A stretch of DNA of 64,000 bases, taken from an uncultured Prevotellaceae bacterium. GTDB taxonomy: Bacteria; Bacteroidota; Bacteroidia; Bacteroidales; Bacteroidaceae. The notes beneath the pieces are model-generated. The model saw only the letters and a program-made list of their open reading frames with translations, did no database searches and was not told where the DNA came from. Shown here one piece after another: positions 1,329 through 55,070 of the stretch. Positions within the stretch are counted from its first letter, which is position 1, and each line of letters starts with the position of its first letter. The position numbers were made by a program, and so were the translations under genes. The DNA is taken from the NCBI GenBank assembly GCA_902778535.1, contig CACYYG010000009.1, positions 62,001-126,000 on the forward strand. The letters run 5' to 3'.

Positions 1329-1405
1329 CACACTTTTTTTTACATTTCAGATATTTCTGATAAAAATATGCTGTTCAGGCCAAAATAGCGCTTTGTGACA
1401 AAACA

Positions 1406-1466
1406 GTAACCACGTGGGTTACTGACTGTAACCACGCGGGTTACTGACAGTAACCCACGTGGTTAC
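1406..1466. repeat. Array of three 17-bp palindromes at 22-bp steps (locus 1)
   Basis: Units at 1406-1422 (GTAACCACGTGGGTTAC), 1428-1444 (GTAACCACGCGGGTTAC) and 1450-1466 (GTAACCCACGTGGTTAC), separated by 5-bp spacers TGACT and TGACA, so each step is exactly 22 bp. It lies in the 316-bp divergent gap between the S9 peptidase and CotH genes. The same palindrome family occurs at 37382-37442 and 54864-54946. No T-run follows, so it does not look like a simple terminator. Confidence 0.95.
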
Positions 1467-1523
1467 TAAAATTTTCTTTTGTTAACAAATCGCTGCGATA
1501 GACTTTTCAAAATCATCGATGTT

Positions 1524-37381: not shown

Positions 37382-37442
37382 GTAACCACGTGGGTTACTG
37401 CCAGTAACCCGCATGGTTACAGTCAGTAACCCACGTGGTTAC
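37382..37442. repeat. Array of three 17-bp palindromes at 22-bp steps (locus 3)
   Basis: Units 37382-37398 (GTAACCACGTGGGTTAC), 37404-37420 (GTAACCCGCATGGTTAC, imperfect) and 37426-37442 (GTAACCCACGTGGTTAC), spacers TGCCA and AGTCA. It lies in a convergent gap between the EEP-fold gene and the C25 peptidase, so it cannot be a promoter operator for either. Confidence 0.95.
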
Positions 37443-37511: not shown

Positions 37512-37610
37512 AGCTCAGGTCTTCTCTCACTTAATCACGACCTTGAGCTTTGCTCGAGCTCGTTCCCGTTCGGAAGACCTCGAGCAAGCTCAGGTCTTCT
37601 CTCACTTAAT
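37512..37610. repeat. 75-bp direct repeat and palindrome at the end of the C25 gene
   Basis: AGCTCAGGTCTTCTCTCACTTAAT occurs at 37512-37535 and 37587-37610. Between them lies a palindrome-rich stretch (GGAAGACCTCGAGCAAGCTC.. against AGGTCTTC). It overlaps the last ~25 codons of the peptidase gene. Confidence 0.85.
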
Positions 37611-40600
37611 TGCTGTTCGAGCTTCTTGCCGTCAACAGTGTACCAACCGCTCTCGTTCAATTTTTCATTGTCAATTGAAATGATGCCCGTAGTCACGTCG
37701 CCGCCGAAATCGAGCACGAACTGCTGGATTCTCTTCATAGCTTCCGCTGAGAACTGGAAGTAGGCGCGGCAGGCCTTCAGCGTGCGGTTTACACCCGTAT
37801 GCTTCAGCGTGCTGCCAGCGGTCATGTAGTAGATGTCGGTGTCGTCAGGAGTAATGTCAAAGGCATCGTAGTAGCCGATGAACTTCACATTTCCATTGAC
37901 AAACGAGAGGGTCTGGCCCACAGGCTCGCTGATGGTGACGTTTTTAAACTCGGGGTTCACAATGTTGTCGCCGCCCTCCCACTTGATGATGTAGGGCACG
38001 CCAGCTTCGAGTTCCGTTACAGCCTCGCCGAAGGTCAGCGACACATGTGTATTGTTCATCGTGGCATCGGCCAGCGTCTTGGCCGTGGCACCACTGAGCG
38101 GGCTGTCGGCCAGCGTCACGTTGAAGGGCAGGCAGAGGGTGTTCCATTCGCCGTCCTTATAGAGCGTGCGGCCAACCAGCATCACGTCTTTGTTGACGTC
38201 ACTGTTGTTGACAAGAGTGTTGATAAGGGTGCTGTTGTTAGTGGCGTTGTCGGCAAGTACCAGACCGCTGAAAGTGGTAAAGTCTATAGTACTCCATTTG
38301 CTTTCACCATCTTCGCCACACAGCGACTTCACCTTCACTGCATACTCAGCGCCTGGCTCAAGGTTGGTCAAGGTGCATGGGCTAGCAGCCGGGTTCACCG
38401 TTGTCCATGTCATCTCTTCTCCAACAACGGTAACATCGTCGATATAGAGCAGGTGCTGGTCGTTGCAGTCGTAGTGGCGGATGGCCACATAGCCATTGCC
38501 GCTGTAAGCACTCAGGTCAACGGTGTATTCTTTCCAGCTGTTATTAGTCAACGTCACTGTCAGCTCAGTATTCGTGAAGTCACTGATGCTGTTGCCTGTC
38601 GTTGACACCAACACTGAGAACTTCTCGGCAGGATAGTTGCTCATTCGTGATGCTGCATAGAAGGTGATGCTTCCGCCTAAAGGTATCTGCGGAGAAACGA
38701 GGTAGTTGTCGGGAGTGACAGCTGAACCAGAACCATTTGGCGTACTGGCGGAAATATAGGATTCCGACAGCATCATTCCGGAGGAAGAATTGTGACATAC
38801 GGGAACTATCTGGCTTCCGTTGGAGTCGTATGCTACATACTCTGTGTTGTGCATCCAGTTGTGTGGCGAAGTTCCTGTAGTACCTTTAAGAAGGGTCCAT
38901 CCTTGTGTACCGTCTTCAAAATCATAGGAAAGCGTCTTTTGGGCTTTTGCATATTGCAACTCGTAGCTGTCGGCTTCGCCTTCCCAACTTACGATGGCAG
39001 AGCTGTTAGTGATGTCAGAGACGCTCAAACCCGTAGGAGCCGGACAAGCCACGGCGCTTGACTCCTTGGTGATGATGAGCTGGTTCTTTACCTTTAAGAC
39101 ATTATTGTAACTTTCTGAAGAAGTCGGTGGTGACAACGGATTATAATTGGTATCGTCACTGTACGCATAGATGGCCTGATTTGAATTTGTACTGAACACA
39201 CGACAAGTCATATGAGGAGAACCGGTCCAAGCGCCACTATTGTCATCAGTCACGAGAACAACGTTGGATGTACCGTCATATTCAAACGGAGTATCGAGGG
39301 TGATGGTTGTCCAGGCACCGGCCACCATGGTGACACTGCCGCTAAACACCTTATCAGAAGCCGAAACAGCAATCCAGTCGGCCTTACTCGAGAAAGAGTT
39401 CTTGTCGGTAGCCTTCAGATAGAATTCGAGGGTACGCGTCTTCACGGCACCGCCATTATAGAAGGCTATGCTAGTGATGCTGCCAGCGTTGCCCAACTCG
39501 GCTGCAGTGTAAATCTGCTCGGAAAGAGAGTATTTATAATAGTTGTAGCTCGGCAGATACTCGTTAGTTGTAGTACCGCTGCCAATCATCACGCCTTCAG
39601 CAAAGTTAGCCACCAAGTTTGCATTGCTGGTGACGTTGAAGGTGTATACAGCATCGGTGGAAACCACCTGCCCATTCTGAGTCCAGTTGACAAACATATA
39701 GCCATCGGCAGGCATGGCGGTCACGGTGCATGGTGCGTTGTAGTTGTATTCGTCACTACTGCTGACAGTGCCGTAGTTGGCGTTGTTGGGAGCGACATTC
39801 ACTGTGAAAATCTGGTCGGAAACAATGGAGAAGCTGCCTTCCCAAGTGTTGTCGCCATTGACTGCGGTGTAGTTCAAAATGACAGGAGCACCCAAGGTCA
39901 CAGCCGAATTAAGACGGAACCTGAAGCCGCTCAGTGTAGTGGTGGCATCGGCACCGAGAGCATCGAAGGTAGCGGTATTGGCACCATCGACAAAGGTGAC
40001 ATTGTTATCGCTTGAAGACAAGGTAACAGTGGTGAGACCCGTAGTAGCATTGGTACCTACATTCTTGAAGGTAAGGCTCAGGTCGGTGTCTATGCCAACC
40101 AGAGCGCTGTTTGGCGTAAAGCCGGCAAGGCTGAGGTATGGACCATCGGGGGCGATGACGCTAATAGTGCTGAGACTGGTAACCTTATTATAGCCGAAGA
40201 CGCAGAGCGTGAGTTCTGAGCCGACGGCTGGAGAGCCGCTTAGGGTGATGGTAGCCACGCCGTTGCTGACGGTAGCTTTGCCCAAAATGTTGTGATCAGC
40301 ATCGGTGATAGTGGCCAAAGCGCCGTCGCCATTGCTGACAGTCACGTTGTAGGTAGATGCTCCTGGAAAAACCACGCCATCATGGCTGACAGTCATTGCC
40401 TGCGGCGTTTTGGTGCGCAGCATCAACGACGGGTCACCATAGAGAATCCAAGCTTGATAGGTACCGACGGCTGAGGCATCTGAAGTGCTGTAATGGTCGA
40501 AGATACCAAACAGACCATTGATAGCCGTTCCGCCAAGAGTGCGTTTGATGTTGTTGCTTTTCTGTTCGGTGAGAATGTCAACAAACTCGTCCTGGGCCCA

Positions 40601-42199
40601 CATGGGCGGAACCCAAGGCTGTGAAATGTAGGAGAACATGCCGCCGACAGCACCGGTAAGCGCACCATTTTTTGTAGCATGCATCCAAGTCTCGGCAAAA
40701 CAGTCACCACTGGAGTAATCATACTTGCCCACCAAACAGGCAACCGAGAAGATAAACGGCAGCTTATTGCTGTTGGTCAAGGCGTTGACGTTGGAATTCA
40801 TGTAATAATGCGACTGCCATCCGGTCTCTTCACCGTGGTTGCAGTAGTTAATGATACCGACACCGCTGTTGATGTGGTTGCTGATAGTGGTTGTCGTTGA
40901 CGAGGGGAATCCGCTTACATTTTTATAATCCTGATAGACGGTTGAATAACCAAAGTTCAAAAGGTCAGTGCGCAGGTTCTCAATATGCTCGTAGTCATCT
41001 TCACCGTTATGACCGCCACTGCCTTCCGTAGTACTGATGCCCAAACCGTTTTGGCACCATGTGTCATTGGTGGTCAAGTCGCGCTCGTAAGTGATGACTT
41101 TGTTTACCTGAGTGGTTACTTGAGCGACCGAACTGGCAGAGAAGCGGCCAATGAAGACATCGTTGTAGAGGTCGTTGCCAACAATCTGTCCGTAAGCGTT
41201 ATCGCCCTTGCCCTCATAACCTGAAGCTCCTGTGTAGGTATAGCCAGGAATCTGAGCCACATCGCCAACGAGCAGCACGTGCGTCAGATTGTTGTTGGCG
41301 TTGTACTGATTTTGGATATAAGTCTTGAGTTTCGCATAGGTAAGACTACTGTTGACAGTGCTGGTTCCCACAATCGTTGTATTCACACCGCGAGTCTTTT
41401 TCCAGTTGACGAAATCAGTCATCGCGTTGATAAAATTATCGTAGCAGATGATCAAAAGGTCACCATCTTCGTCCACAGGCGTGTATTTGGTCTGCGTGGC
41501 CTCATAGTTGATGAAATGACGCCCATAGAGATTCTTGAAATCCGGGTCTGTTTTCACAACTTTGCTTTGACGAGACGTCAGGGGGTTCTGGCCGTTATCG
41601 TCCACCTTGTACATCTCCACGGTTAAATCATAATACACACGGAGAGTCTTCGTGACGGGATTGTAGACAAAAGGATGAACCGCCATGTTCTGTCCGCGAT
41701 AGTCGCGGAGGATATACGGATCGTACAGCTCTGCGCTGCTGGCCGGGAAGAAGGCGTCCTTATTGTAGCTGTCGCCGTAGGTATAAGGCACAGTGGCCGG
41801 GTCGATGGTACGAGGGAAGTCACCCTTTGAGGGGGCAACCATCATGTTATTGAAGTCCATGTACTTGGCTTCAACCACACGGACATTCATACGGGCCTGA
41901 TCGCCGATGATAGCGGGGATGCCAATCATGGGCACGTCCGGCTCGCCTGCTTTAGCAGTGCTAACCGACTTGGGCACAGAGATGATGTTGGCCTCTCCTT
42001 TAGGAGTAGTAACGGTTGTGGTGTAGAAACCTGCTACCTGAAGGTGCACCTTGATGCTTTCCTCGGATGAGGAAACCAACTGCAATTTCATCGAAGCAGG
42101 TGTATCGTCGAGGATTTTCGTCCACTCCGGCTTCGCGTTTTGTGAGAAGGTCGTGGTACTGATTACCAGGGCCAAGAGAATAAGCCAATGTCTTTTCAT
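37535..42199 (-). CDS. Gingipain-type C25 cysteine peptidase, large secreted protein
   Basis: A 1554-residue secreted protein. Seen: signal peptide MKRHWLILLALVISTTTFS, a propeptide region (about 25-240), a C25 domain (about 245-610) with likely catalytic His455 (NYCNHGEETGW) and Cys488 (FSVACLVGKYDY), then Ig-like and fibronectin-like modules, a jelly-roll-type region near 1130-1290, and a sorting-domain-like tail (TGIISIDNEKLNESGWYTVDGKKLE). The final 25 residues are encoded by repeat DNA and do not match the usual ending; see findings. Family members digest host or dietary proteins and are exported by the type IX system in Porphyromonas. It starts 35 bp after RNase G. Confidence 0.85.
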   Translation of the reverse strand: MKRHWLILLALVISTTTFSQNAKPEWTKILDDTPASMKLQLVSSSEESIKVHLQVAGFYTTTVTTPKGEANIISVPKSVSTAKAGEPDVPMIGIPAIIGDQARMNVRVVEAKYMDFNNMMVAPSKGDFPRTIDPATVPYTYGDSYNKDAFFPASSAELYDPYILRDYRGQNMAVHPFVYNPVTKTLRVYYDLTVEMYKVDDNGQNPLTSRQSKVVKTDPDFKNLYGRHFINYEATQTKYTPVDEDGDLLIICYDNFINAMTDFVNWKKTRGVNTTIVGTSTVNSSLTYAKLKTYIQNQYNANNNLTHVLLVGDVAQIPGYTYTGASGYEGKGDNAYGQIVGNDLYNDVFIGRFSASSVAQVTTQVNKVITYERDLTTNDTWCQNGLGISTTEGSGGHNGEDDYEHIENLRTDLLNFGYSTVYQDYKNVSGFPSSTTTTISNHINSGVGIINYCNHGEETGWQSHYYMNSNVNALTNSNKLPFIFSVACLVGKYDYSSGDCFAETWMHATKNGALTGAVGGMFSYISQPWVPPMWAQDEFVDILTEQKSNNIKRTLGGTAINGLFGIFDHYSTSDASAVGTYQAWILYGDPSLMLRTKTPQAMTVSHDGVVFPGASTYNVTVSNGDGALATITDADHNILGKATVSNGVATITLSGSPAVGSELTLCVFGYNKVTSLSTISVIAPDGPYLSLAGFTPNSALVGIDTDLSLTFKNVGTNATTGLTTVTLSSSDNNVTFVDGANTATFDALGADATTTLSGFRFRLNSAVTLGAPVILNYTAVNGDNTWEGSFSIVSDQIFTVNVAPNNANYGTVSSSDEYNYNAPCTVTAMPADGYMFVNWTQNGQVVSTDAVYTFNVTSNANLVANFAEGVMIGSGTTTNEYLPSYNYYKYSLSEQIYTAAELGNAGSITSIAFYNGGAVKTRTLEFYLKATDKNSFSSKADWIAVSASDKVFSGSVTMVAGAWTTITLDTPFEYDGTSNVVLVTDDNSGAWTGSPHMTCRVFSTNSNQAIYAYSDDTNYNPLSPPTSSESYNNVLKVKNQLIITKESSAVACPAPTGLSVSDITNSSAIVSWEGEADSYELQYAKAQKTLSYDFEDGTQGWTLLKGTTGTSPHNWMHNTEYVAYDSNGSQIVPVCHNSSSGMMLSESYISASTPNGSGSAVTPDNYLVSPQIPLGGSITFYAASRMSNYPAEKFSVLVSTTGNSISDFTNTELTVTLTNNSWKEYTVDLSAYSGNGYVAIRHYDCNDQHLLYIDDVTVVGEEMTWTTVNPAASPCTLTNLEPGAEYAVKVKSLCGEDGESKWSTIDFTTFSGLVLADNATNNSTLINTLVNNSDVNKDVMLVGRTLYKDGEWNTLCLPFNVTLADSPLSGATAKTLADATMNNTHVSLTFGEAVTELEAGVPYIIKWEGGDNIVNPEFKNVTISEPVGQTLSFVNGNVKFIGYYDAFDITPDDTDIYYMTAGSTLKHTGVNRTLKACRAYFQFSAEAMKRIQQFVLDFGGDVTTGIISIDNEKLNESGWYTVDGKKLEQQLSERRPELARGLPNGNELEQSSRS

Positions 42200-54723: not shown

Positions 54724-54863
54724 TTCACATTCAGCTCATTTCCCGCGTTTTTTTGTCTTAGTGATGTTAAATAATATCGATGAGCGAACCAATGTTCGTC
54801 GCATACTCAATCGTTTTTTGAAGACGATTTAGGACACAGATGCCAAAATGCTTCAAAACATCG

Positions 54864-54946
54864 GTAACATCGCGGGTTACTGTCAGTAACCACGTGGGTT
54901 ACTGACAGTAACCACGGTGGTTACAGTTAGTAACCCACGTGGTTAC
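54864..54946. repeat. Array of four 17-bp palindromes at 22-bp steps (locus 4)
   Basis: Units 54864-54880 (GTAACATCGCGGGTTAC, decayed left half), 54886-54902 (GTAACCACGTGGGTTAC), 54908-54924 (GTAACCACGGTGGTTAC) and 54930-54946 (GTAACCCACGTGGTTAC), spacers TGTCA, TGACA, AGTTA. It lies in the 476-bp divergent gap before the outer-membrane protein gene. Apart from this array, the leader hairpin and promoters I see nothing else in the gap. Confidence 0.95.
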
Positions 54947-55052
54947 AAATAGGGCACTGCACGTTTTTACGCAAAAACAATTCAGAAATCTTAACCAACG
55001 TTAGATTTTTGCGGAAAAACATAAAAAATTTGGTTTTTAACTCACTTCTTCG

Positions 55053-55060
55053 TACCTTTG
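55053..55060 (+). promoter_or_regulatory. -7 promoter box of the outer-membrane protein gene
   Basis: TACCTTTG, about 111 bp upstream of ATG 55172, giving a ~105-nt leader. Confidence 0.7.
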
Positions 55061-55070
55061 CAGCGCCAAA

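Follow-up and report, generated by a model that had tools for sequence, protein, structure and literature searches.

The window (the whole 64-kb stretch of DNA analysed here) carries three arrays of palindromic units repeated with a period of 22 bp. The first array (1406..1466, plus strand; three units, at 1406, 1428 and 1450) lies in a divergent gap, between the genes of an S9 peptidase and a CotH protein. It belongs to the class designated A below, and is bordered by two flanks common to other copies: about 40 bp on the left (1366..1405, plus strand), ending ...TTTGTGACAAAACA, and about 31 bp on the right (1467..1497, plus strand), starting TAAAATTTTCTTTTGTTAACAAAT... The second class A array (37382..37442, minus strand; units at 37382, 37404 and 37426) has degenerate flanks and occupies a convergent gap, between the genes of a protein of the endonuclease-exonuclease-phosphatase family and a C25 peptidase. 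The third array (54864..54946, minus strand; four units, at 54864, 54886, 54908 and 54930) belongs to class B and lies in a divergent gap, between the genes of an Lnb-type protein and a protein without a Pfam family. Its right flank (54770..54863, minus strand), CGATGTTTTGAAGC...TGGCATC..., is common to other copies over about 94 bp, and its left end (54947..54960, minus strand) reads TGCCCTATTT, the consensus being TGCCATTTTT.

Allowing up to two mismatches, the window holds 12 unit matches versus 1.06 expected (maximum of 100 shuffles: 4); the two matches outside the arrays (31679 and 41103) are isolated and carry two mismatches each. The positions, the gene contexts and the constant 22-bp steps given by an initial annotation of this DNA were all confirmed for the ten units (3, 3 and 4 per locus), as was the near-perfect palindromy: nine units are exact GTAACC-N5-GGTTAC sequences, and the unit at 54864 has one mismatch. 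The remark that no T-runs follow the arrays holds for the most part, the exception being the array ending at 37442, which is followed by TGTTTT. Two other features of the window were noted. The C25 (gingipain-family) peptidase gene (37535-42199), which adjoins the convergent array, encodes propeptide and cleaved-adhesin domains. A promoter-region block (54985-55063) is 91% identical to the genome G121, and its 50-60 bp core also matches contigs of G130, G136 and G035; could it be a promoter or leader module of wide occurrence?

In the source genome (3.90 Mb in 55 contigs, listed as 100% complete), we counted 234 exact GTAACC-N5-GGTTAC units, versus 1 match for the reversed control, and 189 two-unit matches. 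This supports a genome-wide family, of which the initial annotation had described three loci. The pattern searches pointed to at least 69 places, including a flank that retains a lone unit as a remnant (C16:219005), and 68 arrays (36 of four units and 32 of three units) were recovered from the stretches around the matches. These arrays contain 207 exact units; the other 27 suggest about nine more arrays, and thus a total of about 70-80, a figure in which the copies with decayed arrays are under-counted and the heavily decayed ones missed, as the collection was based on array similarity.

The initial annotation, which covered 3 of the 70-80 or so loci, missed that the arrays are the cores of longer dispersed elements with conserved flanks common to several copies and variously truncated. 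We grouped the arrays by a flank score made in this analysis, on which some members score weakly, into class B (39 of the 68 arrays, 35 of them with four units), class A (26 arrays) and class S (3 arrays, with an AAAACA end on both sides). In class B, the two sides of the array carry TGCCATTTTT and CGATGTTTTGAAGC...TGGCATCATCG, respectively, with a similarity that extends up to about 98 bp; in class A they carry ...CGCTTTGTGATAAAACA and TAAAATTTTCTTTTGTTAACAAAT, similar over up to about 120 and 77 bp, respectively, figures that rise to 155 bp within one group for the former and to 104 bp within one pair for the latter. The truncation points differ between copies, and some copies, such as L115, have mixed ends. 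The nine identical class A arrays suggest recent copying. As to terminal inverted repeats, class B shows only a partial match (GATGCCA/TGGCATC) and class A none that is clear. With their many intergenic copies and common flanks, the elements belong to the general kind of the dispersed intergenic repeats.

The core obeys strict sequence rules. In 240 units, the GTAAC arm is intact 240 times and the GTTAC arm 239 times, whereas the loops and spacers are variable (mean entropy, in bits: arms, 0.01-0.05; loops, about 0.6; spacers, 0.45-0.56). Positions 6 and 12, which would close the stem of a hairpin, are changed in 32 of the 240 units, and in none of these to another Watson-Crick pair: as read, seven of the changed pairs form a T-G wobble and 25 a mismatch, and five of these mismatches (C-A) would be wobbles on the opposite strand. 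Altogether, one change was found in 2400 arm positions versus 32 in 480 at positions 6 and 12 (p about 1e-24, a value not calculated over independent events, the units being copies of one another). The detection limit, up to three mismatches of 12, weighted positions 6 and 12 as the other ten, and so it is not by itself the source of this contrast. The 567 kb made up of the array surroundings and the window contain 239 instances of GTAAC-N7-GTTAC and 172 of GTTAC-N5-GTAAC, always inside arrays, whereas every other gap between GTAAC and GTTAC, from 3 to 12, occurs once or not at all. Successive half-sites are therefore 12 and 10 bp apart in alternation, which comes close to one for each turn of the helix. 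In two arrays common to other genomes (L155/L062 and L116/L055; 89-91% identity), differences affect none of 70 arm positions and 6 of 74 other bases (p=0.03), with 2 of 49 in N7 and 4 of 25 in spacers in matching orientation. Such near-invariant arms and 12/10 phase agree better with a protein that recognises specific bases than with selection for hairpins. Together with the lack of compensatory changes, they lend indirect support to the view of the initial annotation that the arrays are one-face platforms for a sequence-specific dimer, the protein itself being a putative one.

The distribution of the arrays is patchy; as one genome per species was compared, it describes differences between species, not strains. 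The two-unit pattern with up to three mismatches matched 7 of 398 same-genus genomes, source genome included, and the single three-mismatch matches of G367 and G159 look like chance, G159 having an equal number of control matches. Profile searches, the strict filters of which lose weak matches, retrieved 6 of the 398 same-genus genomes and 2 of 393 genomes across the order (source genome included in both cases), the second match in the order being weak. An exact scan of a one-genome-per-species collection, which may omit the source genome itself, returned 17 stretches: 14 in Prevotella-type records and three elsewhere, two of them with another spacing. The named public records carrying arrays are Prevotella-type MAGs, some of them rumen-titled. 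No match was found in viral contigs scanned with the exact two-unit pattern, nor in phage and plasmid records searched with an 83-base query. A Gastranaerophilales contig (L061:6934-7180) has GTAACC..GGTTAC-like units at 22-23 bp spacing, which are possibly an independent array.

Where Prevotella genomes other than the source bear arrays, the rigid 22-bp period is kept, whereas a spacing not conserved in relatives would have refuted the initial annotation in its own terms, and the core resides in other shells. First, G064 (positions are those of the CAMKTS records) possesses seven elements, each about 440-500 bp long and 75-91% similar to one another, in which the array lies between long inverted ends of the type AAGCCTACATAA. 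Second, G399 has two elements with ends like those of G064, whose GTAAC/GTTAC words follow one another at 10 and 12 bp, in one orientation or the other. Third, two of the three loci of JAFUDJ (RGIG4392) lie within a common repeat of 480 bp, the ends of which are inverted. A distant array, also of 22-bp period, is present in G287. The G064, G399 and JAFUDJ elements show that the core is common to shells unlike classes A and B, and the terminal inverted repeats of G064 and G399 are clear and long, unlike those of the source-genome classes.

G121, which a single locus identified as the nearest relative out of 120 genomes, has no array detectable by the two-unit pattern with up to three mismatches. 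In the 0.68 Mb of G121 compared, the gaps orthologous to three arrays (both flanks matched next to each other, 78-89% identical) lack the array; depending on the gap, there are two PDDEXK_2 genes, another type of dispersed repeat or no additional sequence. That repeat, with words such as CACGAAT...ATTCGTG, sits in the array's slot in L252, the G121 gap orthologous to L142, and also occurs in L114. Neither a target-site duplication nor a clean insertion boundary was found in the three G121 gaps, two of which could be aligned, these being too diverged to place ends. G121 may have lost its arrays rather than never had them. At least two array-bearing gaps are common to other genomes, which implies that some copies are not very recent, or moved along with their neighbours. 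RUI529 and the source genome share about 2.4 kb at 97% identity (L058 versus L115), which ends at an array with no match beyond; this break reads as a transfer or recombination with its junction at the array.

None of the 68 arrays lies within a predicted gene, and six predicted gene ends overlap an array by 4-26 bp. According to gene calls made in this analysis with a simple hexamer model, 21 arrays are in divergent gaps, 16 in convergent gaps, 28 in tandem gaps and three at contig ends. Among 34 hand-picked proteins encoded beside or near arrays, Pfam identified many as housekeeping or metabolic and left three with no or an unknown family. About 1.25 kb from a class A array, an open frame with Cas12a (Cpf1) REC1, REC2 and RuvC domains runs to the end of the locus (L114:5374-8100, contig C2 of the source genome). 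The arrays could be operators or anchors of a host DNA-binding protein kept for the benefit of the host, for example upstream activating sites or domain boundaries, a reading that we regard as doubtful. It would account for the near-invariant arms and for the preference of class B for divergent gaps (17 of 39 arrays versus 4 of 29 for classes A and S; p=0.016), where the hand-picked neighbours include RelA/SpoT and trigger factor, along with an S1-domain protein, a PurL-type protein and an arginyl-tRNA synthetase. It also suits the location, between array and gene start, of the TAnnTTTG motif, which we take to be the Bacteroidota promoter box, at 53 of the 64 starts facing an array at 40-400 bp (6.0 expected; nearest box at 57 bp from the array, median 128 bp). 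However, an operator does not need conserved flanks, and the 16 arrays in convergent gaps (4 of 39 in class B versus 12 of 29 in classes A and S; p=0.004) support the statement of the initial annotation that promoter control cannot be the whole explanation. In addition, the arrays are missing from nearly all sampled same-genus genomes, G121 included, and the 68 positions along contigs look random (CV 0.99, inside the simulated 0.73-1.18), which led us to reject a regular chromosomal spacing. These last two points argue against a conserved organiser, and the nucleoid or boundary role initially suggested was not borne out.

The arrays might alternatively act at the RNA level, as terminators or mRNA-stabilising hairpins. 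We hold this to be unlikely, even though folding energies from -45 to -61 kcal/mol (z from -6.6 to -13.9) were obtained for six array stretches, the distances to gene 3' ends are short, and AAAACA/TGTTTT borders each of the three class S copies on either side, two of these copies occupying convergent gaps. The complementarity of loops 1 and 3 exceeds expectation in arrays of three units (14 of 32 versus a mean of 10.0; p=0.005) but equals chance in class B (20 of 35, mean 19.9; p=0.65), and we rejected long-hairpin covariation, absent in class B and weak in three-unit arrays. No gene end exists in the divergent gaps that harbour 21 of the arrays; whichever way class B arrays are read, no consensus T-run follows in their flanks; and none of the 32 changed stem-closing pairs is compensated, pairs 1-5 being silent as they hardly vary (one change). 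The hairpin trains proposed in the initial annotation are consequently not supported as a general reason for the arrays. A hairpin with a T-run after a gene is not the rule either: T-runs, on one or both sides, occur only at ends of the class A/S type. Some class S and A copies may thus qualify as intrinsic terminators, and the class S copies may double as bidirectional ones. Rfam returned no match in the window and, in 13 loci, a single match, a tRNA, none being at arrays. The family is not a general terminator.

That the arrays are sites of a tyrosine recombinase, related to the promoter invertases of Bacteroidales, seems improbable to us. The inverton repeats of B. xylanisolvens and B. thetaiotaomicron contain GTTAC-N7-GTAAC, i.e. 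the same pentamers and 7-bp gap, in the excerpted account of them (PMC12118408), and the mixed ends of L115 and the L058/L115 homology break would suggest exchanges through arrays. However, the polarity is the opposite here (GTAAC-N7-GTTAC), GTTAC-N7-GTAAC being absent from the 567 kb, and homologous recombination accounts for mixed ends equally well. An unsystematic look revealed no bracketed invertible segment, and the genome has six integrase-family matches, four over the cut-off. Furthermore, synteny with G121 is kept at 3 of 6 array gaps versus 3 of 8 other gaps of at least 150 bp, numbers that do not show an excess of breaks at arrays (17 of 29 are kept at shorter gaps).

It is very improbable that the elements form a REP/REPIN family moved by a RAYT (Y1 transposase). 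Such a family would fit the many intergenic palindromes, the many whole arrays that are near inverted repeats, and the TnpA-REP subclass of Bacteroidetes, in which atypical structures flank the genes and have copies at other places of the genome (in the excerpted description; PMC6006769). However, PF01797 gave no match at E 0.001 in the source genome, whereas the control search was positive for 5 of 14 genomes; array ends were not seen to bear a GTAG or CGTC tag; the units come several together at a fixed 22 bp; and pairing is not compensated. We rejected this reading for the source genome unless the Y1 transposase is very divergent. Because the G121 gap that corresponds to the array at 54864 is occupied by two PDDEXK_2 (Rpn-type) genes, this nuclease-transposase was also considered as the mobiliser, and rejected: there are 0-3 such genes in six array-bearing genomes and 0-23 in eight array-free ones. 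The array-free G121, G083 and G096 have 23, 20 and 17 of them, the other array-free genomes 0 to 13, and the source genome 1.

The rules that the core obeys, the number of copies, their location between genes, the classes of flanks, the uneven distribution and the occurrence of the core in different shells were all observed. From these, the array-less gaps of G121 and the TAnnTTTG boxes between arrays and gene starts, we propose, with moderate confidence, that the arrays are the phased, sequence-specific protein-binding core of short non-coding dispersed intergenic elements (MITE/BOX-like), present in about 70-80 copies in this Prevotella and spread by copying. The constant core, GTAAC-N7-GTTAC dyads with 5-bp spacers, would present its half-sites on one face of the DNA to a sequence-specific, probably dimeric protein, which would bind the units side by side and thereby keep the core while the flanks erode. 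The elements would spread most likely by transposition or recombination-like copying, and persist where they are least harmful, upstream of promoters and soon after stop codons. We infer that propagation, rather than host regulation, is their main role. It is worth noting that recognition of the arms alone does not account for the frequency of CACGT/ACGTG loops (113 of 240 units), which counts against this proposal, as does the outcome of the Y1 and PDDEXK_2 searches, which revealed no transposase for the elements. More speculatively, the ladder of half-sites could be a portable binding module for a putative oligomerising protein, captured by several Prevotella mobile shells: either a new mobilisation system that recognises the internal ladder and not the ends, or the nucleating site of a filament-forming DNA-binding protein. 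A near-invariant, helically phased core in freely changing shells makes pull-down a direct route to the binding partner. Should a protein be recovered, it would reveal by what means a small non-coding element can spread when no REP-type transposase is present, or how a Prevotella marks some 70-80 intergenic sites.

Our search of open-licence papers found no described element with the phased GTAAC/GTTAC layout. By analogy, the closest systems appear to be BrickBuilt and BOX in architecture, and REP/BIME in palindromy. BOX elements have the module structure A-B(n)-C; to our knowledge they have no phased palindromic core, which sets the present core apart from them, as does their different phylum. 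Like our elements, the BOX of Streptococcus pneumoniae are modular dispersed repeats, nearly species-restricted, and their authors judged them parasitic, according to the excerpted text (PMC3049150). BrickBuilt, a MITE of Porphyromonas gingivalis, comprises 19 elements with 1 to 22.8 direct copies of 23-nt repeats and IS5-family-like ends; it is also found in Bacteroidales, intergenic, lineage-restricted, and made of a short tandem repeat within an often truncated leader and tail, whereas our elements, set apart on the excerpted description, have 3-4 palindromic 22-nt units, about 70-80 copies and no identified IS ends (PMC4596501). REP/BIME/REPIN are likewise high-copy palindromes, mostly outside genes, with units often close together; in the excerpted account, REP units measure 20-40 bp and most are tagged GTAG or CGTC, the GTAG ones being linked to RAYTs, unlike the present units with their fixed phase, no tag noticed and no Y1 transposase found (PMC3733652). 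PINSR of Prevotella intermedia is another amplified intergenic repeat confined to a Prevotella sublineage, but we rejected identity with it on the described length, its unit being 188 bp and, in the excerpted description, without terminal inverted repeats (PMC4755523). As for the Bacteroidales inverton repeats, they are single sites bracketing invertible promoters, in the part of the source describing them (PMC12118408), and their pentamer likeness may hint at the type of the protein, or be a coincidence. The dispersed intergenic repeats are as such of a known kind; the interesting part is the phased core common to different element shells.
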